A stretch of 25,942 nucleotides of DNA from a virus. Shown here one piece after another: positions 571-17,981 of the stretch. How positions within the stretch are numbered: position 1 is the stretch's first letter; each line of letters starts with the position of its first letter. Location: positions 1-25,942 of IMG/VR virus record IMGVR_UViG_3300029258_001786; one strand, given 5' to 3'. Made by a program: the position numbers and the translations under genes. The notes under the pieces are model-generated. The model had not been told where the DNA came from. It saw nothing but the letters and a program-made list of their open reading frames with translations, and did not search any database.

Positions 571-742
571 ACCTAAAAATATGAAATTAACAGAGAAACA
601 ATTCAACCAAATCAAAGACAAATTACCAGCTTTTCCACACATAACGTTTAAACCCACAGGAGAGAAAAGAACAATTGAAGAAATGGACAAAGTTCTTTGC
701 TCGTTTTATGAGATGGTTACAGGTGAGGAAATAAAAAGATAA
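554..742 (+). CDS. Small hypothetical protein upstream of terminase
   Basis: A 62-residue, lysine- and glutamate-rich protein with no recognised domain. Its TAA overlaps the ATG of the small terminase gene by one base, so the two are probably translationally coupled. The ATG at 554 is the first usual start in frame but has no Shine-Dalgarno sequence. The frame stays open upstream to TAA at 503-505 and reads plausibly (IEINPKVPVFAP before the Met), with only ATA codons as possible starts. Either initiation is unusual here or the original 5' end has been lost. A packaging accessory role is suggested by position only. Confidence 0.55.
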   Translation: MKAGHLPKNMKLTEKQFNQIKDKLPAFPHITFKPTGEKRTIEEMDKVLCSFYEMVTGEEIKR

Positions 743-2353: not shown

Positions 2354-2416
2354 CAAATGGCAGTATATGTCTTATTTTATAAATGATAAATCACTCGCTT
2401 TGTTGTTTAAGCACGT

Positions 2417-2462
2417 TTAATACACGACACGTATTAGCTCGGCTGCCTCACGATACGAGGCA
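2417..2462 (+). promoter_or_regulatory. Twin hairpins with near-identical 7-base loops
   Basis: Two inverted repeats lie between terminase and portal. The first has stem TAATAC (2418-2423) / GTATTA (2431-2436) and loop ACGACAC; the second has stem TGCCTC (2444-2449) / GAGGCA (2457-2462) and loop ACGATAC. The stems differ but the loops with closing C-G pairs share the 9-mer CACGAYACG, spaced 26 bases apart. The second stem is followed by TTTT at 2465-2468 and might also terminate transcription weakly. The conserved loop suggests recognition by a protein or RNA partner, or a DNA site. Function is inferred. Confidence 0.5.
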
Positions 2463-2487
2463 ACTTTTAAAATATAAATAGGTTACT

Positions 2488-4038: not shown

Positions 4039-4774
4039 AACTTTTACGGTTACCGATCCAATTAGCAATCAGGAACGACAGGTTCCTGAAGATTTGCAGG
4101 ATTTAATCGGACACATCATAAGTTTTAATCGCAACAAAGGCAAGGAAGACATTAGCCCGGAGATGAACGATTTAAGGACACAAATTGACCAAATGAAAGC
4201 GTCTTTGTCTGAGCATGAAGAAAATAAAAAGAAGGACAAAGGGAAAAGTTCGGAGGTTGAAGAACTTAAACAGGAATTTCAGACAGTACTGGACCAGTTG
4301 AACAAAGAAAAAGAAGCAATACAGAGCCAGAAAGAACAGGCAGAAAATCGTTATAAAGATGAGAAAATTATGAACGATATTCAAGAGGCACTTGCAAAAC
4401 ACGACGTACACAATAGAAACCAATTAGTTTCAATTATGCGCACAATTGGTCAAGCACGTCTAAAAGAAAACATTGATTTGAGTACAGGCGAGAAACAGGG
4501 AACATATTCAACAGTATTGACGTTGAATTTCCCTGATGAATCCGGGGTCGTAAAACCAATGGAATTATCTGCAATGGTAGCAGTGGAAAAGTTTTTGAGT
4601 TTGGACGAAAACAACTTTCATCTTAAAAACAAGCTTTCACCAGGCGGTGGTTCTAGTCCAGGTGGTGGTATGACATCCGGCAATAAATTTGACAAACAAT
4701 TTGAAGAAGCGACAAAAGCAGGTGATTTAGTTGGGCAGGTAGCAGCTATGCAGGCTCAACAAAAATCAAACTAG
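3992..4774 (+). CDS. Scaffolding protein
   Basis: About 260 residues, highly charged, with a long coiled coil (roughly residues 50-125) and a Gly-rich linker (PGGGSSPGGG) before a short helical C-terminus, the classic make-up of a head scaffold. Scaffolds direct major capsid protein into a correctly sized procapsid and are then removed. The start chosen is ATG 3992 because GAGG at 3983-3986 sits at ribosome-binding distance; an in-frame GTG at 3980 would add four residues. The first 47 bases lie inside the portal gene and include a 9-base tandem repeat that gives EPKEPKEA here. No protease domain is visible, so scaffold removal may need another factor or occur by release. Confidence 0.8.
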   Translation: MDQNNQEPKEPKEAIKTFTVTDPISNQERQVPEDLQDLIGHIISFNRNKGKEDISPEMNDLRTQIDQMKASLSEHEENKKKDKGKSSEVEELKQEFQTVLDQLNKEKEAIQSQKEQAENRYKDEKIMNDIQEALAKHDVHNRNQLVSIMRTIGQARLKENIDLSTGEKQGTYSTVLTLNFPDESGVVKPMELSAMVAVEKFLSLDENNFHLKNKLSPGGGSSPGGGMTSGNKFDKQFEEATKAGDLVGQVAAMQAQQKSN

Positions 4775-4784
4775 GAGAAAATAA

Positions 4785-5726
4785 ATGGCACAGATAACAG
4801 GTAATGCCACAATATGGGACCTTCCAAATTATTCTGGTTTGCTTATAACTGCCGATGCTGAAAACACACCTTTTTTTTCTATGATAGGTGGTATGAACGG
4901 CGGCAAGCAATCAAGTAATTTTGAGTTCCCAATTTCAAGTCAATATGACTATCCAGCCGCAGCACAGCCGGGAATAACTGAGACTGCGAGTTTAACGGCT
5001 CCAAATGGGAATGAGGCAGTCAGAACACAAAATAAAAATGTATGTGAGATTCACCACCAGGCTATTGATATTAGTTATGAAAAATTGGCTAATCAAGCCA
5101 GGCTTTCAGGTATCAATACACAGGGACAGGTGAATAATGTAACTGATGAGGTTAATTTTCAAATCGCCTATAATCTCAAAAAAATTGCACGCGATATTGA
5201 ATACTCATTTATAAATGGAACGTATCAAATTGCTATAAATGCAGGTGTAGCAAATCAGACGCGGGGAATGCTTGCGGCGTGTACCACAACGTCAATCAAT
5301 GCATCTGCGGCAACTTTGACTAAAGACATGATTGATGAGGCACTCAGGACCATGGCCGGTGGCGGGGCCCAGTTCATGAATATGGTTCTATTTGCAAATG
5401 CTTTTCAAATTCAGAAAATATCTGATATTTATGGCTATGCGCCTGAAGACAGGAACGTTGGCGGAGTGGCGATAAAACAAATATTGACTGATTTTGCGAC
5501 TCTTGGTGTGGTGTATGATAGATTCATGCCTACTGACGACATATTGATAGCAGATGTGTCTTCATGCGCGCCAGTATTTCAACCCGTCCCAGGAAAAGGA
5601 AATTTCTTTTATGAGGATTTAGCGAAAGCCGGAGCTGCAGAAAAGGGTCAAATTTTTGGTAAAATCGGTCTGGATTATGGAGTTGAATTCCTTCACGGGA
5701 AAATTCATAGTCTGGCAACGAGTTAA
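4785..5726 (+). CDS. Major capsid protein (HK97-fold family)
   Basis: A 313-residue protein whose N-terminus (WDLPNYSG at 11-18, NTPFFSMIGGMNGG at 27-40) matches the pattern of a common phage major capsid family related to the SU10/DUF5309 type. Hundreds of copies build the icosahedral shell. A strong AGGAGA ribosome site eight bases before ATG 4785 fits high expression. It sits directly after the scaffold gene, the canonical order. The length is normal for a capsid protein without a fused protease or decoration domain, and no obvious N-terminal delta domain is present, which fits a separate scaffold. Assignment as major capsid protein is firm; the exact subfamily is from memory and less sure. 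Confidence 0.85.
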   Translation: MAQITGNATIWDLPNYSGLLITADAENTPFFSMIGGMNGGKQSSNFEFPISSQYDYPAAAQPGITETASLTAPNGNEAVRTQNKNVCEIHHQAIDISYEKLANQARLSGINTQGQVNNVTDEVNFQIAYNLKKIARDIEYSFINGTYQIAINAGVANQTRGMLAACTTTSINASAATLTKDMIDEALRTMAGGGAQFMNMVLFANAFQIQKISDIYGYAPEDRNVGGVAIKQILTDFATLGVVYDRFMPTDDILIADVSSCAPVFQPVPGKGNFFYEDLAKAGAAEKGQIFGKIGLDYGVEFLHGKIHSLATS

Positions 5727-5737
5727 GGAGGTACAAT

Positions 5738-6628
5738 ATGGCTTTTGAATGGAGAGAGCTTTATCCGGGTGTTCGCCCAGCTACCAGAGAAGCAATAGTG
5801 GAGCTGAGAGCTTTAATTGAACCTTATGGGAACGTTTATTACGTAGACGGTTCTGTTAATTCAAGCGGTGATGGTAGTACATGGGAAAAAGCATTTAAAA
5901 CAATTCAGGAAGGTCTTAATAAGGCCAGATATACGGCAGGAACGACTAACATAAATACTGACAAAGACAGGCAAGTTTATGTTTATGTTGCTCCGGGTCA
6001 GTATAACGAGCAAGTATTATGGAGTGCTTATAATGTTCACCTTATAGGCGTCCAGGATATTGGAAATATTGATTATGGGGTTGTTGTTAATTACGATGGT
6101 TCCAGTGGATCACCGGCGGCGATGGCTTTTAGTGGCGCCGGTTGCTCAATACAGAATATCCAGATCAATATGGCAACCGCTTATCCGGCGTTGTATTTGT
6201 CTGTTTTCGATGGGTGCCTGCTTAAAAATGTCACTCTCAAAGGTGACGGCACAAACGCAACCATTGGAATATGGGGAGCAAATGTTAAAGAATCCGTAAT
6301 TGATAGTTGCCACGTGCATGACTTCCAGACGGCTGGTATTCATGTTGGACAGGGCGATGGTGGTGATACGTATTTCTGTACATCAGAGATAAAAAATTGT
6401 AAAGTCTCAGGTGATGGTACTACCGGAATAATGGTTCATGCTAATGCGGTAGCCACCGCTGCTCTTGGGAGTTTTATACATCAGAATAAAATTGTCGGCA
6501 CTTGTACGACAGGCATACATCAGGATGCGGCTGGAGCTTATGTGCTTATATCCGATAACTGGATACAAGCGGGTACGGCAGTTACTGACGATGGAACTGG
6601 CGCAGCCGATAATCATACGGCCAGCTAA
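5738..6628 (+). CDS. Right-handed beta-helix virion protein
   Basis: A 296-residue protein. After a short helical N-terminus (1-30), it has a DUF1565-like opening (YYVDGSV 34-40, then WEKAFKTIQEGL) and short Gly/Asn/Val-rich rungs from about 70 to 285, typical of a pectate-lyase-like parallel beta-helix. Such folds form capsid decorations, head fibres or tailspikes, often with carbohydrate binding or cleavage. No catalytic residues can be assigned. A perfect AAGGAGG ribosome site at 5726-5732 suggests high-level expression like the capsid gene just before it. Its place next to the capsid gene, far from the tail genes, favours a capsid-surface role, but this is inference. Confidence 0.7.
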   Translation: MAFEWRELYPGVRPATREAIVELRALIEPYGNVYYVDGSVNSSGDGSTWEKAFKTIQEGLNKARYTAGTTNINTDKDRQVYVYVAPGQYNEQVLWSAYNVHLIGVQDIGNIDYGVVVNYDGSSGSPAAMAFSGAGCSIQNIQINMATAYPALYLSVFDGCLLKNVTLKGDGTNATIGIWGANVKESVIDSCHVHDFQTAGIHVGQGDGGDTYFCTSEIKNCKVSGDGTTGIMVHANAVATAALGSFIHQNKIVGTCTTGIHQDAAGAYVLISDNWIQAGTAVTDDGTGAADNHTAS

Positions 6629-6882
6629 TGATTGCTAAGATTTGGTATATAAGGGAAATATCAGACAGACCGGGGGAATATATTTATAGGGATTTTGACA
6701 TCCCGTATGTTCTCCCGGATAAGTCTTATATCAATGATGAATATGGAGAGATTTATAAATTTGAAGAGCCTAGTTATAACGTTACAGAGGGTAGACTTGA
6801 ATTTATATTAGATTCTATTTCATATTCAGAGATTGGCAGTTATACAGCAATAGGCTGGAAACATTACGAGGTGATAGAATGA
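6628..6882 (+). CDS. Hypothetical small structural-region protein (84 aa)
   Basis: An 84-residue acidic protein rich in Tyr, Glu and Ile, with alternating hydrophobic/polar segments suggesting beta strands (EYIYRDFDIPYVLP, RLEFILDSISYSEIGSYTAIGW). No family recognised. ATG 6628 overlaps the stop of the beta-helix gene (TAATG), so it is probably translated by coupling and may be a partner of that protein. No cysteine, membrane or signal feature. It could be a small beta-barrel accessory or decoration protein. Confidence 0.55.
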   Translation: MIAKIWYIREISDRPGEYIYRDFDIPYVLPDKSYINDEYGEIYKFEEPSYNVTEGRLEFILDSISYSEIGSYTAIGWKHYEVIE

Positions 6883-6992
6883 AAGAAGAGAAAAAAGAAG
6901 AAGTAAAAGAAGAGAAAAAAATGTCTGAAGCTGAGGCACTCTTTTATAAGGAGCGTGATGAGCTTCAGGAACAATTGAAGAATAAAGAATAA
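6879..6992 (+). CDS. Tiny charged helical protein (37 aa)
   Basis: ATG 6879 overlaps the preceding stop and opens 37 codons of almost entirely Lys/Glu-rich sequence (MKEEKKEEVKEEKK, then MSEAEALFYKERDELQEQL), which should be one amphipathic or coiled-coil helix. An in-frame second Met at residue 15 could be an alternative start. A terminator-like hairpin follows a few bases after its stop, so it is probably the last gene of the capsid transcription unit. Function unknown. Confidence 0.5.
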   Translation: MKEEKKEEVKEEKKMSEAEALFYKERDELQEQLKNKE

Positions 6993-6998
6993 ACTAGC

Positions 6999-7018
6999 TG
7001 GGGGGCTCTTGTCCCCCA
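6999..7018 (+). terminator. Candidate intrinsic terminator after the capsid gene block
   Basis: T6999-A7018 closes a stem of five G-C pairs (7000-7004 with 7013-7017) plus a G-T pair and a six-base loop CTCTTG. The downstream TTATGTTTTATT is U-rich but not a clean U tract, so termination may be partial. It lies just after a run of coupled genes, where attenuation of later structural genes would make sense. Confidence 0.55.
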
Positions 7019-7030
7019 TTATGTTTTATT

Positions 7031-7135
7031 ATGAAAGTGATGTGTATTAGATGTAACATATTTTATGATTTATTGAAGCATAACGATTTATATTTTTGTA
7101 AAAAATGCAGAGACAAGATATTTAAAGTGAGGTGA
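7031..7135 (+). CDS. Mini zinc-ribbon protein (34 aa)
   Basis: ATG 7031 opens 34 codons with two knuckles, CIRC (Cys5, Cys8) and CKKC (Cys23, Cys26), spaced as in a minimal zinc ribbon, followed by a basic tail. No good ribosome site precedes it. The paired CxxC motifs argue that it is a real gene despite its size. The next gene's GAGGTGA ribosome site lies at its 3' end. Function unknown; a nucleic-acid or protein-binding role is possible. Confidence 0.5.
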   Translation: MKVMCIRCNIFYDLLKHNDLYFCKKCRDKIFKVR

Positions 7136-7138
7136 TTT

Positions 7139-7420
7139 ATGAAATTTTATGGAATTGGCCAGGTCTGGAATAAGGAAATGAAAAAAATACTCTGCTCGTT
7201 TGGTGGTACCAATTTTGATGGTAATGGGTACACTATTCCAGGAGCATACGAGACAAGCGACGAGAAAGAAATCAAATTATTAAAAGAATTAGGATATGAA
7301 ACTGATTTTCAAAGGGCAATTGAAAAATTAAGGAAATCAGACAGCGATAAAGTCAAAGAACAAAGAGCAAAAAGCCCAACGCTGAAATCACAGGTTGAGG
7401 CTGATCAGGGGGAAAAATGA
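7139..7420 (+). CDS. Hypothetical protein (93 aa), capsid-accessory region
   Basis: A 93-residue protein with a strong GAGGTGA ribosome site before ATG 7139. The first half is compact with aromatic and Gly residues (FYGIGQVWNKEMKKILCSF), followed by a motif GAYETSDEKEIKLLKELGYE that resembles short phage domains in which a strand and helix pack together. The C-terminal third is Lys/Glu-rich and probably disordered. The stop overlaps the next start. No certain family; a small virion assembly or minor head protein is the likeliest reading from context. Confidence 0.55.
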   Translation: MKFYGIGQVWNKEMKKILCSFGGTNFDGNGYTIPGAYETSDEKEIKLLKELGYETDFQRAIEKLRKSDSDKVKEQRAKSPTLKSQVEADQGEK

Positions 7421-7767
7421 GCGAAGCAAGAACAACCGATATATTAGAGGACCAGTTCGGGGGTACTGATAAGGCGCCAACGGCCGCACCGGTTACGGTA
7501 AATACAACCGTAGGGGGTATTGAAATTGCAGCGGCTTCAGCTACAAGGAAATCTATCACACTGCAAAATTGTGGAACAGAGCCTTGCATAATTCGATTGG
7601 GAGGTGATCCCAGTACGGCCGCATATAATTTTGTATTGAGCGATGGCACAGCGGCAAGGGATGGTTTAGGGGCGTCAATAACTCTTGATACATGGAAAGG
7701 TGCTATTAAGGGCATAACGGCGGCAAATAGCACAGTAATAGCAGTACTGGACATCTTGGAGGATTAA
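7417..7767 (+). CDS. Beta-sandwich-like structural protein (116 aa)
   Basis: A 116-residue Thr/Ala/Gly/Ile-rich protein. Residues about 25-112 read as alternating beta strands with a pattern often seen in phage decoration or fibre-cap proteins: TVNTTVGGIEIAAAS, then RKSITLQNCGTEPCIIRLGG, then a loop and two final strands ending in VLDILED. No catalytic or metal motif. ATG 7417 overlaps the preceding stop and a GGGGG run sits upstream as ribosome site. Probably a virion surface protein; the small size and beta content fit a capsid decoration trimer, but this is inferred. Confidence 0.55.
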   Translation: MSEARTTDILEDQFGGTDKAPTAAPVTVNTTVGGIEIAAASATRKSITLQNCGTEPCIIRLGGDPSTAAYNFVLSDGTAARDGLGASITLDTWKGAIKGITAANSTVIAVLDILED

Positions 7768-8304
7768 ATGTCAATTATAAATCCAGGCCGTAATAATATG
7801 GAGACGTATCATAATGTGCCGAGTGCTGATAGTGCTGATAATGTTATTATGTCAGATGTGATTGGAAATAAAACGGATACGCACGACGGAGATAGTATAT
7901 ATTCTCTTGTTGTAACAATAAAAGAACATCACAACACGTCCAGTAAAGTTATTCCCTCATTGGCTACAGGTATAACTGTTACCTCTGATGGAGCGGCGTG
8001 GACACTGGGAAATTTTTCTAATGATATTGTCGCAGCAAACGCTATAACACATATTTTCGATATTCATAATGTTAGTGTCGAAAATATAAGCGCGAACGCA
8101 GTTTATGAATTAGTTTTGTATTACGGTGCTACTGATATCGAATGCGGTCGAGTGAGATTTGTTAAAAATGCAGTTCAGGACGGGACCATGAATGTCCCAA
8201 TTCAATCATGCGAAATACCCGCCAATAGTAGAGTGCGTGCAAAAGTAGCTGATAGCACAGGCGGGAATAATGTGACCATAAGTTTATTTTATTATGAATA
8301 CTAG
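7768..8304 (+). CDS. Hypothetical structural protein (178 aa)
   Basis: A 178-residue protein rich in Ser, Asn, Val and Ile without membrane or signal segments. After a polar N-terminus (about 1-45) it has alternating strands (YSLVVTIKEHH, GITVTSDGAAWTLG, YELVLYYGATDIECGRVRFV, VRAKVADS, NVTISLFYYEY), suggesting a beta-sandwich. It starts directly after the TAA of the beta-sandwich-like gene before it (GAGGATTAAATG) and is probably cotranslated with it. Context within the accessory structural block suggests a fibre or decoration component. No known family is recognised with confidence. Confidence 0.5.
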   Translation: MSIINPGRNNMETYHNVPSADSADNVIMSDVIGNKTDTHDGDSIYSLVVTIKEHHNTSSKVIPSLATGITVTSDGAAWTLGNFSNDIVAANAITHIFDIHNVSVENISANAVYELVLYYGATDIECGRVRFVKNAVQDGTMNVPIQSCEIPANSRVRAKVADSTGGNNVTISLFYYEY

Positions 8305-8321
8305 GAGGGCAATGAATACTA

Positions 8322-9455
8322 ATGGATGTGCGCAATTCAATATCACAGGCCATTGCCGATGGACGTTATCTGAAATTAGATTGTACAAATGATCCTTTAA
8401 CAAATGATTTAGACATGGGTGATAATAACTTGAATAATTGCCCGGTGATTTATGGTGGCGATTCTATTAGTGATAATCTGGAACTTAGACCAAACACAGT
8501 AGCCCCACCCGTACAGGCAGGCGCGACTGATGGTAGATGTCTCGTTTATGGAGGGATTACTTTTCTCGGGTTTGATGACATGTCGGCTGGCGCATCAGCT
8601 ACCCAGGGAGCAATTATGAAGTCAAACGAAACATCAGATTGTACAGGATCGGCTTTTGTACTATTTGGCGGGTTTACTTATACTAATATAATTCAATATA
8701 ATACAGCTCAGACTTTTGGAGGGTCTGCCGTATTTCAGGATGCGTCAACGTGGGCTGAGACATCAGCACCAGGGGCACATGCTAATTTTTCACTGAGTTC
8801 TTTTCTTGGTGGTCCGAAGTACCGTGTTGACCATTCAGGCGTAGGGGTGCCTCCCACGGAAGTATCGGCGTTTAATGCAGGGACATCAACTGACAAATAC
8901 AATGGGTCAGCTCTAACAATGGGCAGAATGATAGGATTTCAGACCAATGGGATTTTTGCACTTAAAGTCTTTTTGGGCACTGAGGAGTTGAGGGGCGGCG
9001 TGGTATGTACTAATTATATGCATTTTCTCGCCAATTCTGATATCGCGGGTGGACTGACTTTGCATGGTGGATCAAGTATAGTAAATGAATACGGATTGAA
9101 ACTTGAAAATATTGATCATGGTACTAATGTGTGGTCTATCTGGAGTGACTCTGTAAACGCTGTACTCTATCACAAAGCAGATATCCAAGTGGCGACTGAT
9201 GATAAGAGTGTAATTTGGGGAACTGGTCAAGATGCAGGTATCTCTTATGATGGGACCGATTTGGTGGTAAATAGCTCTCTTCAGGGTTCTGGAACGGTTA
9301 AATTGACAAGTCCTAATAATTGGACAAATAATGGTGCGCAAACTGTGACTATTACCAATGTGGCACCTGCCGGAGTTGGGACAGCTACTATATCGCGATG
9401 GTTGACTGTTAAGGATAATACAGGTACCGTTTATTACATACCGGCATGGACGTGA
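8322..9455 (+). CDS. Fibre-like structural protein (377 aa)
   Basis: A 377-residue protein. The N-terminus (DGRYLKLD 13-20, then DPLTNDLDMG 24-33) matches a repeated theme in phage fibre proteins, where an LDMGxxxLxN element marks a trimeric beta-rich shaft. The rest is Gly-, Asn- and Ser-rich with short strands, and its C-terminal part resembles fibre proteins that carry variable surface domains. The in-frame start is ATG 8322, although the AGGAGGG at 8303-8309 is better spaced for an out-of-frame ATG at 8312; it is 12 bases from the start used here. Probably a head or tail appendage; location near the capsid genes leans to head fibre. Host binding is possible but unproven. Confidence 0.55.
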   Translation: MDVRNSISQAIADGRYLKLDCTNDPLTNDLDMGDNNLNNCPVIYGGDSISDNLELRPNTVAPPVQAGATDGRCLVYGGITFLGFDDMSAGASATQGAIMKSNETSDCTGSAFVLFGGFTYTNIIQYNTAQTFGGSAVFQDASTWAETSAPGAHANFSLSSFLGGPKYRVDHSGVGVPPTEVSAFNAGTSTDKYNGSALTMGRMIGFQTNGIFALKVFLGTEELRGGVVCTNYMHFLANSDIAGGLTLHGGSSIVNEYGLKLENIDHGTNVWSIWSDSVNAVLYHKADIQVATDDKSVIWGTGQDAGISYDGTDLVVNSSLQGSGTVKLTSPNNWTNNGAQTVTITNVAPAGVGTATISRWLTVKDNTGTVYYIPAWT

Positions 9456-9458
9456 TGA

Positions 9459-9689
9459 ATGAATTATTATCACTTAATAATAACACTCGATGGTGGGCCG
9501 TTTTCAAATCCGGCCTTTCCGACAGAACAGGCGGCAAGAGATTACGCACTAGGGTTGATTGCATACGGAGAGTTTTATGGTTCTCCAATAATATGGACGT
9601 ACAACCCTAATGTTGGGCTGGGTACGTGGTACGGTGACCACCCGACGGATGATGAATTGAGGGTAATATTTTTAGGGATTATACCATGA
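9459..9689 (+). CDS. Hypothetical protein (76 aa)
   Basis: A 76-residue protein beginning MNYYHLIITLDGGPFSN, with a strand, a helix (PTEQAARDYALGLIAYG) and further strands, a small alpha/beta fold. It begins four bases after the fibre-like gene stop and its end overlaps the next start. No ribosome site is evident, so coupling is probable. Its N-terminus resembles that of the following gene (a strand, then a helix starting with acidic residues), so the two may be diverged relatives. Function unknown. Confidence 0.5.
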   Translation: MNYYHLIITLDGGPFSNPAFPTEQAARDYALGLIAYGEFYGSPIIWTYNPNVGLGTWYGDHPTDDELRVIFLGIIP

Positions 9690-10000
9690 TAGAAGTCAAG
9701 TTAACAATAGGCGGACAAGACATTCAGAATGATTTTTTTGATTCACTGGATGAGGCAGAAGATTTTGTGAAAATTCTTTTGAATGCCTCTCCGCACGGCT
9801 GGTATTATGAGCCGCTTAAAAATGAATGGATATGGGAAAACCACATAATCCATTTAATTGGTGAAGAAATAGAAAAGAACTCAGAAAAAAAGATTAAAAT
9901 AGTAATGGATCAAATTGATAAAGAAGAGAAAAAGATAAAAAAGAGCCAGGACAAAATAGTAAGACTTAATAATCAGATTGAGGTTTTAAATGGATTTTGA
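9686..10000 (+). CDS. Coiled-coil accessory protein (104 aa)
   Basis: A 104-residue protein with a compact N-terminal half (VKLTIGGQDIQNDFFDSLDE, then helix EDFVKILLNAS and GWYYEPLKNEWIW) and a long Lys/Glu-rich coiled coil from about 58 to 100. The domain order suggests a small folded head on a helical rod. Weak AGGG upstream; overlaps its neighbours on both sides. May be an assembly chaperone or fibre connector for the surrounding structural proteins. No family recognised. Confidence 0.5.
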   Translation: MIEVKLTIGGQDIQNDFFDSLDEAEDFVKILLNASPHGWYYEPLKNEWIWENHIIHLIGEEIEKNSEKKIKIVMDQIDKEEKKIKKSQDKIVRLNNQIEVLNGF

Positions 10001-10184
10001 AGAAAAAAGAATAACCCGTGAAAATAGAATAAAAGAAATTGAGCAAGAAATCAATATGTTGACTCAACAAAGAAATCAGATTGACAAGCAGTTGCAATTG
10101 CTAAATATCGAAGGATTGAGAATACAGGGACAACTAGAGTTAATAGGTGAGATGGATGGGCAGCCGGAAAACAAAACAAAATGA
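9990..10184 (+). CDS. Short coiled-coil protein (64 aa)
   Basis: A 64-residue protein that is almost wholly predicted coiled coil, with heptad-like Ile/Leu spacing (IKEIEQEINMLTQQRNQIDK, then LQLLNIEGLRIQGQLELIGE). A good GAGG ribosome site lies just upstream of ATG 9990. Overlaps the preceding coiled-coil gene by 11 bases and the next gene by 29, so the three are probably translated together. It may pair with the preceding coiled coil. Confidence 0.5.
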   Translation: MDFEEKRITRENRIKEIEQEINMLTQQRNQIDKQLQLLNIEGLRIQGQLELIGEMDGQPENKTK

Positions 10185-10743
10185 GCTTGTATATATACCA
10201 TTTACGGTATTTGGTACAGACGGGATCACTCCATTAACTGGTCAGGCTGGATCATGCACATATAATTTGACGTTAAATAATGCTAATGCGCCAGAGGTCG
10301 TAACGATAGCAGAAATAGGATCAACAGGATATTATTATGCCTCATTTACGCCGCTATCGCTCGGCACATACGATTTAGAGATAACATGTCCTGACGACAG
10401 GGTTTTGGGTGAGACGTTATTTTGTGAGACTAATGATTTGGATGATATTAAAACTGATACGGCTGCGATTAAAATTGTGACAGATAATTTGCCTGATTCT
10501 GGCGCACTAACAGATATAGTTAATACGTTAACCAGATCGTTGGGATTGGCGCAAGAAAATTATTATTTGGATAACACCAGCTATGATACATATAGCGGTG
10601 CTAAATTATTAACGAGTGGAAGATTGAGAATATATAGTGCGGCTGGTAGTGTTGGGACTGCTAATGATGTTCTGGCAACATATACAATTACTGCGATATG
10701 GAATAATGACGAATTGCAAACATACAAGGTTGTTAAACAATGA
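10156..10743 (+). CDS. Beta-rich structural protein with helical linker (about 195 aa)
   Basis: About 195 residues. Residues 10-90 form an Ig-like beta domain (VYIPFTVFGTDGITPLTG, ..., GYYYASFTPLSLGTYDLEI). A linker DDIKTDTAAIKIVTDNLP follows; this DIKTDT...DNLP element is common between phage structural domains and probably forms a trimerising helix. The C-terminal half is a second beta domain. The start is taken as ATG 10156 because GGTGAG at 10146-10151 is suitably spaced; GTG 10147 would add three residues. Likely a baseplate- or fibre-type virion component. No precise family assigned. Confidence 0.55.
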   Translation: MGSRKTKQNELVYIPFTVFGTDGITPLTGQAGSCTYNLTLNNANAPEVVTIAEIGSTGYYYASFTPLSLGTYDLEITCPDDRVLGETLFCETNDLDDIKTDTAAIKIVTDNLPDSGALTDIVNTLTRSLGLAQENYYLDNTSYDTYSGAKLLTSGRLRIYSAAGSVGTANDVLATYTITAIWNNDELQTYKVVKQ

Positions 10744-10895
10744 GCCTGGGATTAGCGACAAAGGGCATAATTAGTATGAATGGATCATGTGATGTCATAT
10801 TGTACGGTGCTGATATAGAGATTGAGGATAATGAACCTGATGTAATTATTGATGATACAGAAATTGTTATAGAGGTTAAGTGTTATGTCAAATGA
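10740..10895 (+). CDS. Small acidic hypothetical protein (51 aa)
   Basis: ATG 10740 overlaps the preceding stop and opens 51 codons with Asp/Glu/Ile-rich beta-prone sequence (GADIEIEDNEPD, VIIDDTEIVIEVKCYVK). The 3' end overlaps the next gene by 11 bases, consistent with coupled translation along this block. It could be a small beta-strand accessory to the flanking beta-domain proteins. No family recognised. Confidence 0.5.
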   Translation: MSLGLATKGIISMNGSCDVILYGADIEIEDNEPDVIIDDTEIVIEVKCYVK

Positions 10896-11241
10896 AATAG
10901 AATTGCGCAACGGTGAGGGCCGATGGATACAATGGACATTTAGGCGGCGCAATCAGACTACAGGCAAATTAGAGCTATTGGATGTATCTAGTGCAATATT
11001 TACATTCAAGGCTAAAGCTAAATTGACGGATGATACTTATTTAATTGAGAAAACCGACGGAAATTTTGATAAAACAGGTGGGGCGAATGGGGTAGTGTTG
11101 GTAAACATACCGGCGAGCGAGAATACATCAACGTTGCTGCCTCCTGGTAAATATATATCAGAAATTCAGGCAATAATTACCGTAGATACTGACGTAATTA
11201 GGTATGAATCGCCATTAATAATAAAGGAGAGTATATTGTGA
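10885..11241 (+). CDS. Beta-sandwich protein resembling BppU N-terminal domains
   Basis: A 118-residue protein with a pattern like the N-terminal domain of phage BppU/DUF2479-type proteins: WIQWTFRRRNQTTGKLELLDVSSAIFTFKAKAK, Gly-rich turn, VVLVNIPASENTSTLLPPGKYISEIQAIITV and a last strand. In known phages such domains attach appendages to a baseplate or connect fibres. An AGAGG ribosome site lies upstream of ATG 10885. No catalytic motif. Its place in the block after the capsid gene suggests that it joins an appendage to the virion, but the BppU resemblance rests on pattern recognition only. Confidence 0.5.
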   Translation: MSNEIELRNGEGRWIQWTFRRRNQTTGKLELLDVSSAIFTFKAKAKLTDDTYLIEKTDGNFDKTGGANGVVLVNIPASENTSTLLPPGKYISEIQAIITVDTDVIRYESPLIIKESIL

Positions 11242-11453
11242 AAAAATACGTTATTAAATGTTATCGATGTAAAAAAAGATTTGAAGGTACTTCAATATCG
11301 CAAATGGTAAGAGATTATAATCTCGTCAAGAAAGGGAAATACTATAGTTGCGATTGCAAGGGTGTGATTGATAATTTTATTAAAAAGACTGATAAGAAAA
11401 AGAAGAAATCATTTTTTGAGGCAGAAAAAGAAATAGAAAATGCCGATATTTAA
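11238..11453 (+). CDS. Small zinc-ribbon protein (71 aa)
   Basis: A 71-residue basic protein with CYRC (Cys8, Cys11) and CDC (Cys38, Cys40), a three- or four-cysteine zinc site with a shorter second knuckle than the classical CxxC. Residues 42-71 are Lys-rich and helical. The start is GTG 11238, which overlaps the previous stop; AAGGAGAG at 11224-11231 is the ribosome site. Its end overlaps the MuF-like gene by 14 bases. Function unknown. Confidence 0.55.
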   Translation: MKKYVIKCYRCKKRFEGTSISQMVRDYNLVKKGKYYSCDCKGVIDNFIKKTDKKKKKSFFEAEKEIENADI

Positions 11454-12420
11454 AGACAAAATAAGCAAGAAAGACCTGAAGCGTTACGAAGAAGTGGCGC
11501 GGAAAGGAAATCCGCAAAGGGCGATCGATTTATTTATTGCTAAATATATTGTCTCGCTAGCGGAGCAATATCAGACGCTTATGAAAAAAGCACTTCGCAA
11601 AGGAGAGAATTTACTTTCGTCAAAAGAGACAAGGGCTCTATCAATTAGAATATCAGGAGCGTCAACCGGGGTGAGTGCTGCAATGGAAAAGCTATACAGA
11701 AAATTCATGAGGTTTGTTTATTCGGAGGCAGTTTTCAAAAAGCTTAAAATTACTAATCCACTGGCAAAAAAAACTATAATAAACAATTCAATACAACTTT
11801 TCAAAGAAAATATTGAGGGTGCTTTATCAAGAACTAATAATTTGATATTATCAAATATTAGAAAATATCAAACTAAATTGATTTCAGAAAGTGCCAGATT
11901 TGATGCACTTGTAAAAACAGGCGAAGCATTTCAAAAAAATAAAGCTGCTTTCATGGAGAGAGTAAAAAAAGATATTTTAAAAGCGAATCCAGATTTCGAG
12001 AAAATGCTTGATAAAGACCAATTCATAATTTATAGAGATGGCAGCAAACACAGGTTTGATGATTATTCAGAGATGGCAACCAGGACAACCGCGCTTAATG
12101 TAGAAAGAAATGGCGTGGAAATGCAGGAAATAATAAAACAAAGGCGAGTGAGTGAGTATTTTAGGCGGGATAAAACACCGTATAAAACCAGCATACGTCG
12201 TCAAGTGTGCGCGGAAATACTCTCAAAAAGATTTAAAGGTAAAAGCTTAATTGCCCATGATCCAGGGGCAGCAGCTATTTTTAGAATACTCACTATTAGT
12301 GAGGCACGGGCAAGAGGTGCATTCGGGCCAAATTGCAAACATAGCATTCGGCCATTGTCCAAAACCGATTATAACAGAATTGAAACATTATTATTTCTTG
12401 CTGAAAAGGAGGCTGTGTAA
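11440..12420 (+). CDS. MuF-like minor capsid protein
   Basis: A 326-residue protein. The N-terminal two thirds are helical; the C-terminal third has the motif pattern of phage minor capsid protein 2 / MuF domains, with YRDGSKHRFDDYSEMATRTT near 198-216 and the terminal Cys/His signature FGPNCKHSIRP near 295-305. MuF-family proteins sit inside the head near the portal and help assembly, and some are ejected with DNA. In many phages the gene lies next to the portal gene; here it is about 7.4 kb downstream and directly before the adaptor gene. No toxin domain is seen at the C-terminus, which ends shortly after the signature. Confidence 0.75.
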   Translation: MPIFKDKISKKDLKRYEEVARKGNPQRAIDLFIAKYIVSLAEQYQTLMKKALRKGENLLSSKETRALSIRISGASTGVSAAMEKLYRKFMRFVYSEAVFKKLKITNPLAKKTIINNSIQLFKENIEGALSRTNNLILSNIRKYQTKLISESARFDALVKTGEAFQKNKAAFMERVKKDILKANPDFEKMLDKDQFIIYRDGSKHRFDDYSEMATRTTALNVERNGVEMQEIIKQRRVSEYFRRDKTPYKTSIRRQVCAEILSKRFKGKSLIAHDPGAAAIFRILTISEARARGAFGPNCKHSIRPLSKTDYNRIETLLFLAEKEAV

Positions 12421-12887
12421 TGCTCAGTGAAACGTATGAGATAGAAGACATGAAAAAGGAACTAGAGGCGTTTCAGACGTATGGCTATGACAATGAATCT
12501 AAATTTCAAGAAGACCTTGAATATGCAATTGATATAGCCAAATTAGAGCGCATGGAACCGGTAATAGGTGAAGACACCTATGATGCACTGGAAGCACTGG
12601 ACAAAACGGGATTAAGTACAACTGAATTATATGTTTATCGGGCGGAAGTATATTTTTCGATAGCAGAGTTTTATTTATTACACGGTAGGCGCGATAAATA
12701 CCGAAGAAGAGCGGCAAGGGAATCCCGGACGCAGGGAGACGTTACTTTTTCCACTCTTGGCACCATAGGCAAAGAAATGGCCGCAAATGATTATATTGAG
12801 AAAGCAAAGTGGAGTCTGGCCGAGGGTGGTTATGATTTTCAGCAAGGTGCGAGATTGCAAAGGAGAGTCTCTATTCATGGCAGTTGA
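12420..12887 (+). CDS. Head-tail adaptor (connector) protein
   Basis: A 155-residue all-helical protein with the sequence style of gp6/gp15-like head-tail adaptors, including LYVYRAEVYFSIAEFYLLHG (about 70-89), followed by an Arg-rich segment and a polar C-terminus. Adaptors form a twelve-subunit ring below the portal that receives the tail. A perfect AAAGGAGG lies upstream of ATG 12420, which overlaps the MuF gene stop. The end overlaps the next gene. Position between MuF and tail genes matches the usual connector order. Confidence 0.65.
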   Translation: MLSETYEIEDMKKELEAFQTYGYDNESKFQEDLEYAIDIAKLERMEPVIGEDTYDALEALDKTGLSTTELYVYRAEVYFSIAEFYLLHGRRDKYRRRAARESRTQGDVTFSTLGTIGKEMAANDYIEKAKWSLAEGGYDFQQGARLQRRVSIHGS

Positions 12888-13389
12888 AAATGTTATAAAA
12901 ATACAGGCTAAAAAGCCCGGGGGTAAGGCCACATTTGAATATATAATCGCACGATTAGAAAAAGGTGCGCGTGACGCCTCTGATATGAAAGACGTTTTTT
13001 CGGTTATCACGCCCTGGATTAAGGACACTATGCGGCACGTATTTAGTGAAGCCAACCCAGCAGGGTGGGCAAAATTGACTACCAAATACAGAGCATGGAA
13101 AGCAAAAAAAGGATACCCGGTAACAATCGGTATTATGACAGGTGCTTTAAGAACAGCCGTATCAACTAAAGCTATTACTAAATACAAGAAAAAAAGCATG
13201 TTATATCAACTTAATCCGGCTGTCTCAGGCATGCAAAGAGGAACGGCAAAATCAAGAAATGTGCGAGTAAGAGAATATGCTAAATACTTTAATCGAAAGC
13301 GGCCTATTTTTGAATATGCTAAAGAGTTTTTAAATAAAAAGATAAAAGAATTTGTTGAAAAATATATAGCGGATGAAATGAAATCATGA
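12877..13389 (+). CDS. Virion morphogenesis / tail completion protein
   Basis: A protein of 170 residues from ATG 12877, chosen because AAAGGAGAG at 12859-12867 precedes it; an upstream in-frame ATG at 12787 has no ribosome site and would lie inside the adaptor gene. The pattern GWAKLTTKYRAWKAKKGYPV, then MTGALRTAVSTKAITKYKKK resembles the Mu gpG / P2 gpS-like family (phage virion morphogenesis), which acts at the head-tail joint or tail end. Basic overall. Its end overlaps the next gene by four bases. Likely role is connector completion. Confidence 0.65.
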   Translation: MAVENVIKIQAKKPGGKATFEYIIARLEKGARDASDMKDVFSVITPWIKDTMRHVFSEANPAGWAKLTTKYRAWKAKKGYPVTIGIMTGALRTAVSTKAITKYKKKSMLYQLNPAVSGMQRGTAKSRNVRVREYAKYFNRKRPIFEYAKEFLNKKIKEFVEKYIADEMKS

Positions 13390-13856
13390 GTGAAGCCAAT
13401 GACATAATACAGGCAATAAGTGAACAATTGCAGAATTATAGTACATTAAACTATATTAAATCCTGGACTGAGTATGAGGATGAATTGTCACTTGAAGATA
13501 AGGCAAATTTTCCGTATGTTAATTTTGATTTAACTGATTTCAGAGTTGAAAGGGCCGGGACTTTATCAGAACATCAGGCAGAGCGCAGAATTTACCCTGT
13601 AATAATAATGTTTTCAAACTGGCACAAAGAGAAAGTAAAGGTCAAAGAGGGAAAGGGATCATTTAAAGGACTCTTTGATATTTACGATGATATAAAAGCA
13701 GCGATTTATCAAGATTTGACCTTCGGGGAGGTCGTTAATAAATACCCCTTTAGGCCAGATTTCGCGACGGATATTTCAAAGCATCCGAATGGTGAATTCT
13801 GGATCGGGCGAGCGGTGATATTTTTTGAGGTTTATAAGGATGTATTTTTTTGTTAA
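13386..13856 (+). CDS. Tail terminator-like protein
   Basis: A 156-residue alpha/beta protein with an N-terminal helix (NDIIQAISEQLQNY), central strands (NFPYVNFDLTDFRVER, RIYPVIIMFSNW) and a C-terminal strand (AVIFFEVYKDVFF), the arrangement of gpU/gp17-like tail terminators and tail-completion proteins. Such rings cap the tube and join it to the connector. Position immediately before the tail tube gene fits. It starts inside the preceding gene's stop region, and the perfect ribosome site of the tube gene overlaps its own stop. Confidence 0.6.
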   Translation: MSEANDIIQAISEQLQNYSTLNYIKSWTEYEDELSLEDKANFPYVNFDLTDFRVERAGTLSEHQAERRIYPVIIMFSNWHKEKVKVKEGKGSFKGLFDIYDDIKAAIYQDLTFGEVVNKYPFRPDFATDISKHPNGEFWIGRAVIFFEVYKDVFFC

Positions 13857-13869
13857 AGGAGGCAAGTAA

Positions 13870-15008
13870 ATGAGCGAAAGCCAAAAGCGATCCATTTTTG
13901 GGATACATGATATACGGTAAAAATTGCCGCCTCATGTGGTAACGCATGTTGCAAACCCGGTGAACTCAGGGGAACTCTAGACCAGACAATCCTGAGCCAA
14001 GCCTCAATTGAGGAAGGTGCAACGACTATCCCGAAAGGGAGTACACTACAAGTCGGTAGTGGAAGCGCCGGGCAACCTGTAAAGGTTGGTGATATAGTCT
14101 AATCTTGTAGGGGACTACAAGCAGCGAAAGCGGTTATTGATTGACGACCAATAGCGAATATAAATGTTTTTAGTAGAACTACATGGCTCAGTCAAGCATA
14201 TTACCGAGTACTCGGGGATGTTATGATTGAAATGCCCGCAGAATTTGCTCAGCTTAAAGGTGGGTCAAACCTTTTTGTCTGGGATTCAGCGATAAGTTCT
14301 TTTGAGCCAACGGTATCAATAGTAGCAAGAGAAATGACAGGTGACATTATAGCTACTAATGTAGCTGGTAATGTTACGGAATATGCAGCTGACACGGATG
14401 GGGATGTTATAGATGAGGATAACGTAAATGGAACGTCTGTAATTGATGCAGCTGAAGGGATAGCAACCATTACAGTTAAGGCAAGCACTGGAAAGGATGA
14501 ACTGAAAGAAGGGTGGTATGTAATTAAGGCTACAGCGGCAGCAACAGTAGACATTTATGCTATGAGCAGTTCAAATTTCGCAAGGGGAACAGATGAGGCG
14601 TATGAGGATGATGACGGCAAAATTACGGCGTCTCCGATTACTGTGCCGGCCTCGGGGGCAACGGTTGATGTAGATAATTTTGGACTTACCCTTACCGGCG
14701 GCAGTTCATCAGCAATAGCCATGACCACCGATGATACGGCGAAATTTTATGTACAAAAGCCGCATGGTGGTAGCTATAGCGCCATTATAGGCGAGCAACC
14801 TATGGATTTTCAGGAGTATGGAATGACAATATTTTCGGAGACTAACGCGGGCACTCTTTACAATATGTTGCTGTATAGAGTCAAGCCAGCGGGAATGAGC
14901 TTTCCGTTTCCCGAAAAAAATTATGGTGAATTTAATGTTAATGTTCAGGTTATGTACGATAGTACAGAAAATAGAATAGGAATTTTCAGCAATACGACAC
15001 CTGAATGA
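13870..15008 (+). CDS. Major tail tube protein, split by a group I intron
   Basis: The gene is best read as exon 1 13870-13918 joined to exon 2 14167-15008 (891 spliced bases, 296 residues). Exon 1 has a perfect AAAGGAGG ribosome site and encodes MSESQKRSIFGIHDIR plus one base. Without splicing a TAA (13918-13920) follows at once. Exon 2 reads FFSRTTWLSQAYYRVLGD and continues into the long frame. FGIH...YxxxxxLGDV near the N-terminus and the ELxGGSN-like element (AQLKGGSNLFVW) match the pattern of siphovirus major tail proteins, which form the tube. The internal ATG 14223 lacks a ribosome site and would drop conserved N-terminal residues. The Gly/Thr/Ala-rich beta content fits. The C-terminal half (about 125-270 of exon 2) may include an Ig-like extra domain. 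Confidence 0.8.
13919..14166 (+). ncRNA. Group I self-splicing intron (IA-type), 248 nt
   Basis: The conserved core can be folded by eye. P1: exon CGGU (13915-13918) with GCCG (13926-13929), giving the U-G pair at the 5' splice site. P2: 13933-13948 with a GTAA loop. P3: CCCGG 13956-13960 with CCGGG 14068-14072. P4: CTCAGG 13965-13970 with CCTGAG 13991-13996. P6: CCTC...GAGG 14002-14013. P7: GACTAT 14024-14029 with ATAGTC 14094-14099. Two hairpins, P7.1 (14030-14039) and P7.2 (14044-14061), mark subgroup IA. P8 (14073-14088) has a GTAA loop. P9 lies at 14104-14121. The terminal G is 14166. The first five intron bases AAAAA can pair with the exon 2 start TTTTT as P10. There is no homing endonuclease ORF. 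Confidence 0.9.
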
Positions 15009-15268
15009 TGGATGAGATAAGAGCGTTAATAACTGAGGAAGAAAGAAGCTTAAAACACATGGCCGCGGGAAAGCAAATTATCCCGCGGCTTATCAAGGGT
15101 TCTTCAATGGTTAAGCGAGCCGGGCGGCCGTTGGAAATTACAGAGCCATTGTTTAACGCTTTTAAGCTCAGGTATTGCCCGGCCTGTCATGAGGGGGAGA
15201 AGTTTTTGATTTTTAAATATGTGGCGGTTTGTATGATTTGCAATGAATTTTATTTTATAACGAGGTAG
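15005..15268 (+). CDS. Small zinc-ribbon protein between tail tube and chaperone
   Basis: An 87-residue protein with CPAC (Cys58, Cys61) and CMIC (Cys76, Cys79), a classical four-cysteine zinc ribbon in the C-terminal half. The N-terminal half is basic and partly helical (RALITEEERSLKHMAAGKQ). ATG 15005 overlaps the tube gene stop, with a second in-frame ATG at 15008. It ends one base before the chaperone gene. Its position inside the tail assembly block suggests a role in tail assembly or a small regulatory factor; no family was identified. Confidence 0.6.
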   Translation: MMDEIRALITEEERSLKHMAAGKQIIPRLIKGSSMVKRAGRPLEITEPLFNAFKLRYCPACHEGEKFLIFKYVAVCMICNEFYFITR

Positions 15269-15269: not shown

Positions 15270-15620
15270 ATGAAAGACACAATGGTAATCGGGGGAAAAG
15301 AAGTTGAAATTATTTTCAGGTATGTGCATTACATGAAATTCATGGGCGTGTATAACAGGCTCATAGAAGTTGATAGAAAACTGCAGGCGAAAGGGCAAAG
15401 ATACAACTTTGATTATTTTGTTTTCAGGTGTATATGGAAATGCATTCCAAAAAAAGGATTTTGGCCTTTCAAAAAGCCATTCCGGTCATTAAGAAAAATG
15501 ATTAAAGAAGTCAGGGTTAACGAATATAAAGTAGTAACCAATTTTTTTAATGATAGAGTTTTAAATCCTGTGAATGAATTAGAAGAGGATAGGGAGCAGG
15601 GAAACTTGAAAGCGGTATAA
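15270..15620 (+). CDS. Tail assembly chaperone, short form (gpG-like)
   Basis: A 116-residue protein lying between tail tube and tape measure, the invariable place of gpG-type tail assembly chaperones. N-terminal strands (TMVIGGKEVEIIFRYVHYMKF) precede a basic helical region. Such chaperones coat the tape measure protein and recruit tube subunits. Near the 3' end it contains the heptamer G GGA AAC at 15599-15605 in the phase needed for -1 slippage, so most ribosomes end at TAA 15618-15620 and a minority make the longer product. GAGG lies at ribosome-binding distance before ATG 15270. Confidence 0.75.
   Translation: MKDTMVIGGKEVEIIFRYVHYMKFMGVYNRLIEVDRKLQAKGQRYNFDYFVFRCIWKCIPKKGFWPFKKPFRSLRKMIKEVRVNEYKVVTNFFNDRVLNPVNELEEDREQGNLKAV
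15599..15605 (+). promoter_or_regulatory. -1 ribosomal frameshift site GGGAAAC
   Basis: The heptamer falls as G_GGA_AAC relative to the upstream frame (codons 15600-15602 and 15603-15605), the X_XXY_YYZ phase of a canonical -1 slippery site; lambda uses G_GGA_AAG for gpG-T. The -1 frame is open from 15593 through 15997. AGGGAG at 15591-15596 lies just upstream and could act as an internal Shine-Dalgarno element, though closer than in dnaX. No strong downstream stem is apparent. Confidence 0.85.
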
Positions 15621-15997
15621 GTTTTGACGAGTATATATTAAAATTGGATGATATAATTGATAATCAGATTATGATATTACAGACAAAGGGGTGGAATAAA
15701 AAAGATATTTATAGTACTGAGATAAGAAAAGCGGTTTTATATTTGATTGAGGAAGAGAAAAGAGAATACGAGAAAATAATGAATGATAATATTTTATTAT
15801 ATAGAGTTCATGGGATAGAGCCAACAAAAGACTTAGATACTGATATTTATAAAGATTACTTAAATGAAAAGATCAATCAAAGAGATGAAAGGATGCTACA
15901 AGATTTCAACAAAAAGAAGAATCATGATATTGGTTTTGACGAGCAAATAAAGAATGAAATAATAGGCAAGCAATTGAAGGCACAGGGCAATGGCTGA
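15605..15997 (+). CDS. Tail assembly chaperone, frameshift extension (gpT-like)
   Basis: The -1 frame product: after Asn at codon 15603-15605 decoding continues at 15605 with LESGISFDEYILKLDDII, giving a fused protein of about 242 residues (112 from the first frame, 130 from the second). The extension is acidic and helical and ends in a Lys-rich tail, as in other gpT domains that bind tube subunits. Independent initiation is unlikely: the first candidate start is a TTG at 15644 with no ribosome site. Its stop overlaps the tape measure start (ATG 15990). The arrangement duplicates the lambda G/GT logic. Confidence 0.75.
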   Translation, partial: LESGISFDEYILKLDDIIDNQIMILQTKGWNKKDIYSTEIRKAVLYLIEEEKREYEKIMNDNILLYRVHGIEPTKDLDTDIYKDYLNEKINQRDERMLQDFNKKKNHDIGFDEQIKNEIIGKQLKAQGNG

Positions 15998-17981
15998 GCG
16001 AATAGAACTAGAGATAATATTAGAGAATGGTCAACTAATAGCAGCCACAAAGAAAAGCGCGGCTGCTTTAGAGGATACCGGAGAGGCTGCCCAAGAGGCC
16101 GGTGACAAAGGCTCAAAGGGCATGAAAAAAATGGCCGGTGGCGTTGGTATGCTTGGAAAAGCATTAAAAGCCTTTCTTGCTCTTGGAATTGTTCGGTTCT
16201 TTATCGATATTGGCAAAAAGGCATTTAAAGCAGCCGCACAAATGGAGCAATTTGAGGTTGCATTTTCCACTATGTTGGGGAGTGCAAAAAATGCAAAAAA
16301 CCTATTAAAAGAAATAAAAGATTTCTCTGCGGAAACACCTTTCCAACTACCGGGATTGGTTGAGACGTCAAAGCAACTTTTAGCGTTCGGGGTTGAACAA
16401 GAAAAGATTGTTGAAACTATGCGTAATCTTGGAAACGCAGCCCAGGGTAATCAAGAAATACTTTCCCGGTTAGGCCTTGCTTACGGTAAAGTTAAAACTA
16501 TTGGCAAAGCAAGTATGGAAGAGATTCGTCAATTTGCTGAAGCTGGGGTGCCAATTATCCAGGCGCTTGCCGATAAATTTGGGGTGACTACAACTGCTAT
16601 TGTTAAGATGGTAAGTCAGGGCAAAGTAGGTTTTGCTGATGTTGATATGGCACTCAAAAATCTTACCACTGGAACCGGCAAATTTGCGGGCATGCTTGAA
16701 AAACAATCCCGCACCATGTCAGGTATGTTTTCAACTCTTAAAGACAACTTTACTTTAGTTTTAATTGATATGGGTAAAAAGATGGGTCCGGGTATAAAGG
16801 ATCTAATTAAATCTTTTGGTTTGCTTACAAAATCGGGTGGTGTTTTAGGTAAAGTTCTTGGCAAGGTCGGAAATATTGTTTCTATTATTGGTTCTGCTAT
16901 AGCTGGACTTGTTACCGGTATATCATGGTTAATTAACAAAATAACAGTGGCAGGTAATTCATTAGTAATTTTAAATAATAAAAGAAAATTATTAACTGCT
17001 ACAGGTGAAAAACAATTACAGTTAGAAAAAACGATTAAAGAAGCTGAAGACGAAAACGTTAAATCCAAAAAGGAATTGATAGAGTCAGAAAAACAATTAT
17101 TACAAATTAAAAATAATCTTGTAAAGTCAGGACGGGAATTGGTCGGGCTTGAAAATGCTCAAAGAGTGGCAATAATGGAACAGGCTAAATTATTGGCAGA
17201 TGCAACAAAGACCCTTGATCCTACAGCCGGAAGAAAAGGGGAAAAAGAAGATAAGGGAAAAAAAGGCGTTGACCCATTCCAGGAAAGACTTGATAAATTT
17301 GCTAATTATTCAAGCTCTTTAATTTCAATGGCAAGTAGTTTATCCGGTCAGCTTGGGGACATCTGGGATGCAGAGCAACAAAGGGCAATGGCTAACCTTG
17401 AAAACGGTTATAAATTTAGAAAGGCATTGATTGAGGCTACTGTCAAGGATGAGGATGAAAAAAGGAAGGCACTTACTGAGCAAGATAAATTATTTGAATT
17501 ACATCAGAAGCTAATCAAAAGACGCGAGGCAAAGCGTGAAAAGAAATTAAGAATAGCAAGCGCGATTATTTCAGCCCTTGCCGCTGGTGTCTCGGCCCTT
17601 GCCGCCATGAGTTCGATTCCGATCGTCGGGCCTATTCTTGGACTAATTTTTATGGGATTAACAATTGCCGCTGGTATGGCCGTTGTACAGCAAATTTCAC
17701 AAACGCCCGAACCGTCGATGTTTGCCAAAGGCGTCTTTGATTTACCAGAGAATAAGCTAGGCATGTTGCATGCAGGTGAAACAGTTCTCACAAAACCGAT
17801 AACCGAGAATTTAAAGAAATCAGAAATTACTTTATCAGGTCCAGAGGGCGGGGATGAAAGCCCGCGTATTGTTCAAGTGCTGCTTGACTCTAAAGTATTA
17901 GCTGAAGGAATAGAGGAACCAAGAACTGAGAAAGCCAGGTCAATGGGTGTTAATAATTATGGTGAAGAGGGTGTTTACTAA
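15990..17981 (+). CDS. Tape measure protein
   Basis: A 663-residue protein. The N-terminal region (about 50-265) has the phage tape measure domain pattern, including AAAQMEQFEVAFSTMLGSAK, FSAETPFQLPGLVETSKQLL, AFGVEQEKI, ASMEEIRQFAEAGVPIIQAL and FADVDMALKNLT. Hydrophobic stretches lie around 290-315 and 521-569, a coiled coil around 340-410, and the C-terminal HAGETVLTK near 594 is a usual closing motif. It spans the tube lumen and sets tail length; at roughly 1.5 angstroms per residue this predicts a tail near 100 nm (inference). It overlaps the chaperone gene by eight bases. The hydrophobic parts may enter the host membrane during DNA ejection. Confidence 0.9.
   Translation: MAERIELEIILENGQLIAATKKSAAALEDTGEAAQEAGDKGSKGMKKMAGGVGMLGKALKAFLALGIVRFFIDIGKKAFKAAAQMEQFEVAFSTMLGSAKNAKNLLKEIKDFSAETPFQLPGLVETSKQLLAFGVEQEKIVETMRNLGNAAQGNQEILSRLGLAYGKVKTIGKASMEEIRQFAEAGVPIIQALADKFGVTTTAIVKMVSQGKVGFADVDMALKNLTTGTGKFAGMLEKQSRTMSGMFSTLKDNFTLVLIDMGKKMGPGIKDLIKSFGLLTKSGGVLGKVLGKVGNIVSIIGSAIAGLVTGISWLINKITVAGNSLVILNNKRKLLTATGEKQLQLEKTIKEAEDENVKSKKELIESEKQLLQIKNNLVKSGRELVGLENAQRVAIMEQAKLLADATKTLDPTAGRKGEKEDKGKKGVDPFQERLDKFANYSSSLISMASSLSGQLGDIWDAEQQRAMANLENGYKFRKALIEATVKDEDEKRKALTEQDKLFELHQKLIKRREAKREKKLRIASAIISALAAGVSALAAMSSIPIVGPILGLIFMGLTIAAGMAVVQQISQTPEPSMFAKGVFDLPENKLGMLHAGETVLTKPITENLKKSEITLSGPEGGDESPRIVQVLLDSKVLAEGIEEPRTEKARSMGVNNYGEEGVY

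Follow-up and report, generated by a model that had tools for sequence, protein, structure and literature searches.

The 248-nt segment at positions 13919–14166 (+ strand) of the window, by which we mean the whole 25,942-nt stretch of IMG/VR record IMGVR_UViG_3300029258_001786 that was analyzed, is a complete, well-formed group I intron that carries no endonuclease gene. With a probability of roughly 0.9, we read this segment as a compact IA-type self-splicing intron that interrupts codon 17 of a gene in the tail-tube position of an uncultured phage, whose genome is probably circular and ~37.7 kb in length. The assignment of the intron draws on a match to Rfam family RF00028, covariation among relatives, the form of the 3′ end and the list of open reading frames (ORFs).

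A sequence-only reading of this DNA had drawn the core helices of a group I intron and proposed a search with the Rfam group I model. The corresponding scan of the whole window returns an RF00028 match at 13908–14121 (+) that scores 83.3 bits against a gathering threshold of 50 (E = 4.2e-20) and spans the full model (positions 1–253 of 253), and RF00028 is the sole Rfam family above its gathering threshold in the 25,942 nt. The P3–P7 pseudoknot, P4–P6 and P8 are all present. In P1 (+), the internal guide sequence GCCG (13926–13929) pairs with the exon bases CGGU (13915–13918), such that the last exon base, U13918, forms a U·G pair with G13926 at the 5′ splice site, as had been proposed. P3 (13956–13960 with 14068–14072, +) encloses P4, P5, P6, P7.1 and P7.2 and is pseudoknotted with P7 (14024–14029 with 14094–14099, +), which we take to be the guanosine-binding helix. 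The hairpins P7.1 (14030–14039, +; helix 10 of the pair count) and P7.2 (14044–14061, +; helices 11–12) are followed by P9 (14105–14120, +), P9.1 (14124–14131, +) and P9.2 (14133–14155, +), which are covered by helices 14–16, and P2, P4, P5, P6/P6a and P8 were also drawn. The presence of P7.1 and P7.2 between P7 and P3 is the mark of subgroups IA1/IA2. The window intron carries both hairpins at this place and both form in the aligned relatives, in agreement with the IA-type features previously proposed. The ORF list holds no homing endonuclease gene inside the intron and no + strand ORF there of at least 60 codons with a start codon. One frame within the intron (13920–14099) is stop-free for 60 codons with no listed start codon, which we took for chance.

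Covariation was counted in an alignment of 28 introns, comprising the window intron and 27 relatives chosen from at least 120 loci for long or close nhmmer matches. The paired structure was taken from the window row and then counted across the alignment, with P1 countable in the window sequence alone. Among the 28 introns, 95.2% of 1,528 pair cells pair, compared with 72.0% in shuffles, and changes on both sides occur in 44 of 64 pairs. The covariation score is 0.500 versus 0.142 in shuffles; none of 500 shuffles reaches the observed value on any of five measures, and in controls with a slid structure only 30.9–39.9% of cells pair. At the level of individual helices, P3 is 100% paired with both-side changes in all five of its pairs, and both-side changes are likewise found in 6/6 pairs of P9, 6/7 of P9.2 and 6/6 of P7.2, the two helices of which (11 and 12) are 100% and 78.6% paired. 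P7.1 is 100% paired with both-side changes in one of three pairs and is partly fixed by the search pattern. Part of the reason why P7 is invariant across the alignment is that its 5′ strand is set by the search pattern, and the helix carries no covariation information; P2 pairs in just 71.4% of cells. Because the structure came from the window row, and because kin sequences may outscore shuffles even when no structure is shared, our reading leans on how large the effect is, together with the Rfam score. Covariation and Rfam score provide strong evidence for the intron.

Excision of exactly this segment restores a long reading frame. From ATG 13870, which is preceded by a strong Shine-Dalgarno-like AAAGGAGG at 13855–13862 (+), the frame without splicing stops at TAA 13918–13920 after 16 codons. 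Removal of the 248 bases joins exon 1 (13870–13918, +; 16 codons plus one base) to exon 2 (14167–15008, +), which encodes the rest of a putative tail-tube protein, so named by gene order, and yields 296 open codons from ATG 13870; removal of 247 or 249 bases instead yields stops throughout. The boundaries, the 296-codon frame and the good ribosome site of the sequence-only reading are thus all borne out. By itself, the restored frame is weak evidence, since seven G residues within 14100–14222 (14154, 14166, 14196, 14208, 14214, 14217 and 14220) would keep the frame open if used as the 3′ end. The sequence GAATATAAATG at 14156–14166 (+) lies directly after P9.2, ends in the terminal G (G14166) and is the one exact GAAYATAAATG that the window contains on its two strands. 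Among the IMG/VR matches listed, a compact P7 is found in 109 of 121 core matches, and 11 of these 109 sister introns (L024, L043, L049, L051, L054, L074, L077, L079, L097, L124 and L133) carry the exact GAAYATAAATG at most 115 bases after P7, against a background of 16 occurrences in 1,084,258 bases of at least 120 loci on both strands. A looser GAA form alone is present in 80 of the 109 and neither form in 18, so the 3′ end is backed by close relatives and not by all sisters.

These observations bear on two alternative readings of the same locus. An active intron could end at one of the six other in-frame G residues, each of which also leaves the frame open. However, G14154 falls within P9.2, the remaining five fall beyond the conserved 3′ end form, whose last base is 14166, and all six would forfeit a possible P10, in which AAAAA (13919–13923) could pair with TTTTT (14167–14171). 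P10 is itself only suggestive; taken with the other points, a different 3′ end appears most improbable. The intron-like RNA could instead be a remnant that no longer splices, with a 261-residue protein made from ATG 14223. This ATG opens a 261-codon frame with GGGG at 14214–14217, no homologue shows the true N-terminus, and codon usage ahead of the ATG is lukewarm: the 18 codons at 14169–14222 have a log-odds score of −1.0, compared with −2.2 in the next frame and 3.5 (sd 2.0) for coding segments, of 514 out-of-frame segments, 40 reach a score as high, and the value for exon 1 is −2.6, such that codon usage close to the junction is ambiguous. Had the intron decayed, some features of the locus should have been lost, yet every drawn core helix is fully paired, both splice-site features are kept, and the frame and the strong upstream ribosome site are intact, all of which argue for an active intron and make a remnant very unlikely. 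For annotation, a gene caller that places the start at 14223 would cut 35 residues from the tail protein.

If the intron splices as its structure predicts, the transcript would fold around P3–P9, and guanosine bound in P7 would attack after U13918, the base that P1 holds in a U·G pair. Exon 1, once released, would in turn attack after G14166, where P10 may align exon 2, and the ligated mRNA would encode 296 residues across a junction of CGGT to TTTTTAGT. Unspliced mRNA would give rise to just a 16-residue peptide that ends at UAA 13918–13920. Lacking an endonuclease gene, the intron is unable to home on its own; it may be kept vertically, or may have been moved by an endonuclease acting in trans or by reverse splicing.

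The phage is represented by further sequence. Two other IMG/VR contigs are 100% identical to the window over 9,674 and 10,783 bases, intron included. The longer record (IMGVR 3300017989_000228; L142/L143) has 37,832 bases, and the same 123 bases stand at both of its ends. On account of this exact terminal overlap, the genome is probably complete, a circle of ~37.7 kb that contains the window. Stretches 1–15000 and 30000–37832 of the longer record give no Rfam match above threshold and the remainder lies in the window, so the intron is the sole group I intron found in the phage at that threshold. The same phage encodes an 85-residue HNH-like ORF (L142:1104–1361; PHROG E = 6.6e-4; Pfam HNH 15.2 bits, cut-off 21.4) that overlaps an Hjc/VRR-NUC-like ORF, the two together spanning L142:1104–1614. 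It was considered as a homing endonuclease, and we infer that it is instead a gene of a recombination module. A 294-codon ORF at L142:2226–3110 carries a long Gly-Ser-Tyr-Asp repeat (GYGDGSGSGDG...).

Which virion protein does the interrupted gene encode? The major capsid gene (4785–5726; PF17236) lies far upstream, and the genes directly upstream, at 12420, 12787 and 13386 in what would be the terminator position, have no family match. The tail gene is the only long gene between the gene at 13386–13856 and two ORFs in chaperone position. It is followed by a small ORF (15005–15268) with a zinc-ribbon-like CPAC...CMIC pattern and only below-cut-off Pfam matches, and then, by gene order, by the putative tail assembly chaperones G and GT (15270–15620 plus a frame open at 15593–15997, +). 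At 15599–15605, the sequence G GGA AAC forms a slip site whose phase suits a −1 shift into the frame that is open from 15593; it is a putative −1 programmed frameshift that would join the ORF at 15270–15620 to the frame ending at 15997; we take this ORF pair with its slip site (15270–15997) to resemble lambda G/GT. The tape measure protein gene lies at 15990–17981 (+; PHROG E = 5.6e-60, PF20155 E = 2.3e-30). The annotated order in Mendokysei and Shambre1 runs from a tail terminator through the major tail protein and the chaperones, one of which is joined from two pieces, to the tape measure, and that in G4 is major tail subunit, hypothetical protein, chaperone and tape measure. Dulem virus 32 has a tail completion protein, a tail protein, two hypotheticals and the tape measure; no tail labels of this kind are given in Cellulophaga phi39:1 or PJN03. 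By its place before the chaperone-position ORFs and the tape measure gene, the interrupted gene is most likely the tail-tube gene, and it is gene order that supports the tube identity given in the sequence-only reading.

The intron could be real and the host gene encode a virion protein other than the tube. The 296-residue protein has no tube-family match in PHROG, Pfam, NCBIfam or PDB: its best PHROG match (E = 0.0064) is to a family of unknown function, Pfam returns none, the best NCBIfam score is 16.5 bits against a cut-off of 639, and the best PDB sequence match has an E of 0.053. An AlphaFold prediction of exon 2 alone, run on the single sequence with no alignment, failed to give a fold (mean pLDDT 36.1), and the upstream genes in terminator position are likewise devoid of family matches. 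However, the gene occupies the place of the major tail protein in Mendokysei, G4 and Shambre1, and we consider another virion protein unlikely. No homologue outside the same virus was found in viral and genome contigs, phages or PDB sequences with exon 2, with the full spliced protein or with its initial 79 residues as query; the contig searches rely on short exact peptides that distant relatives may escape. The phage matches, to Synechococcus S-CBS2 (E = 3) and Erwinia AH04 (E = 8) in two records apiece, are at chance level and were discarded. A phmmer search of 6,973 open stretches of the collected loci, with same-virus loci excluded, found no homologue of the tail protein. Relatives sought via the TMP, MCP, 20713 and 11440 proteins comprise nine MCP relatives (L008–L016) besides the same virus. 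None of these nine loci has RF00028 above threshold, and the spliced protein, searched in six records, matched in the same virus alone. The contig, phage and PDB searches returned neither an intron-less allele of the tail gene nor a homologue that could confirm the splice junction.

A blastn search with distant settings, using 13900–14190 as query, matched 471 of 50,697 phage records at 60–99% identity, none over more than 80% of the query, and a 24-base core pattern recovered at least 120 IMG/VR stretches (L020–L139). Among the matches listed, the best relatives by nhmmer score are L131, L042, L085, L083 and L054, and L131 shares 80.4% identity with the window intron over 199 aligned positions (intron bases 35–231). 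The host gene encodes a major head protein in L131, L085 and L054, judged by exon 1, and in L083, judged by exon 2, and gives no family in L042. The upstream exon was located in 15 loci, and nine of these, chosen by closeness or look, were scanned; seven are major head protein exons, that of L025 is of unknown function and that of L042 has no match. From the 121 matches listed, 83 downstream open stretches of at least 50 codons were obtained, 38 being dropped for lack of a compact P7, a contig end or a short exon. The 83 fall into 48 clusters, of which 40 (73 members) had their longest member scanned; the other eight hold 10 members. Assigned by cluster, the commonest downstream exon among the matches listed is major head protein (34/73), followed by DNA polymerase (8), ribonucleotide reductase (7), endonuclease (6), and RNA polymerase, Sak4 and portal (2 each), with one tape measure, one tail tube and 10 stretches with no clear name. 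The six endonuclease stretches are probably intron-borne and hence not hosts. Head proteins account for 13 of the 40 scanned clusters among the matches listed, and in a tally of all 83 members the largest family, at 12, is again one of major head proteins (best 25 of 65 families). In L110 and L138, several cores of the same intron subfamily lie close together, which suggests multi-intron genes.

The sample of host genes derives from one core pattern, covers only the matches listed and was not dereplicated by virus, and for this reason the excess of head proteins is a lead and not a rate. We hypothesize, at somewhat less than even odds, that this subfamily resides preferentially in genes for abundant virion proteins (chiefly the major head protein, with tail tube, portal and tape measure as further hosts) rather than chiefly in those for nucleotide and DNA metabolism. 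In a 2025 survey devoted to one phage subfamily, core genes of nucleotide and DNA metabolism are said to hold most split phage genes, and the question is raised why introns colonize them (PMC11878797). Among the matches listed here, head-protein exons outnumber DNA-metabolism exons. If the preference for virion genes is true, splicing would gate the supply of structural proteins late in infection; alternatively, virion genes, being essential, would be favored targets of homing.

Group I introns in tail-tube genes are already known, and the present intron is ordinary in kind. The location in a tube gene had been put forward as worth describing in itself; this claim is weaker than stated, since the tail-tube gene of Staphylococcus phage Twort has three introns, and we dropped novelty on this point in view of the Twort annotation and of PMC11878797. 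TwortDSMZ_105 is annotated as a tail tube protein gene joined from four pieces, and it contains three RF00028 matches of 63.6, 97.4 and 100.9 bits, a range within which the present intron (83.3 bits) falls. The Twort introns share 78–80% identity with it over stretches of 64 and 83 bases. The survey has Twort orf142 encoding a tail tube protein (PMC11878797), and we infer that orf142 is TwortDSMZ_105. All three Twort introns interrupt the same gene, and over 100 codons precede the first of them, whereas the present gene holds a single intron after codon 16 and encodes a protein of no recognized family. A sister intron with the same core pattern in L068 (IMG/VR 3300033144_005423; RF00028 87.6 bits) lies ~11 codons (MARAIDTDFYH) after ATG 1774 at L068:1774–2559. 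Its downstream exon matches PF06841 (Phage_T4_gp19) from profile position 2 (E = 1.6e-15; 57.6 bits, cut-off 28.2). The present gene is therefore not alone among tube genes in being interrupted close to its start. The L068 tube protein is of gp19 type, whereas the present protein has no gp19 match; L068 also holds a second gp19-type gene at 4474–4995.

Mycobacteriophages offer a further parallel. PMC3706429 describes, in a tail gene of BAKA (BAKA/Optimus, Cluster J), a 265-bp intron that has no homing endonuclease gene and whose splicing was shown by RT-PCR, and reports that the capsid gene of LittleE also bears an intron. As described there, the BAKA intron resembles the present one in the U that precedes it, the G at its end, its place in a tail gene and its lack of an endonuclease, and differs in its host gene, which encodes a minor tail protein of a mycobacteriophage (PMC3706429). 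To this known set, the single case presented here adds one compact, endonuclease-free intron.
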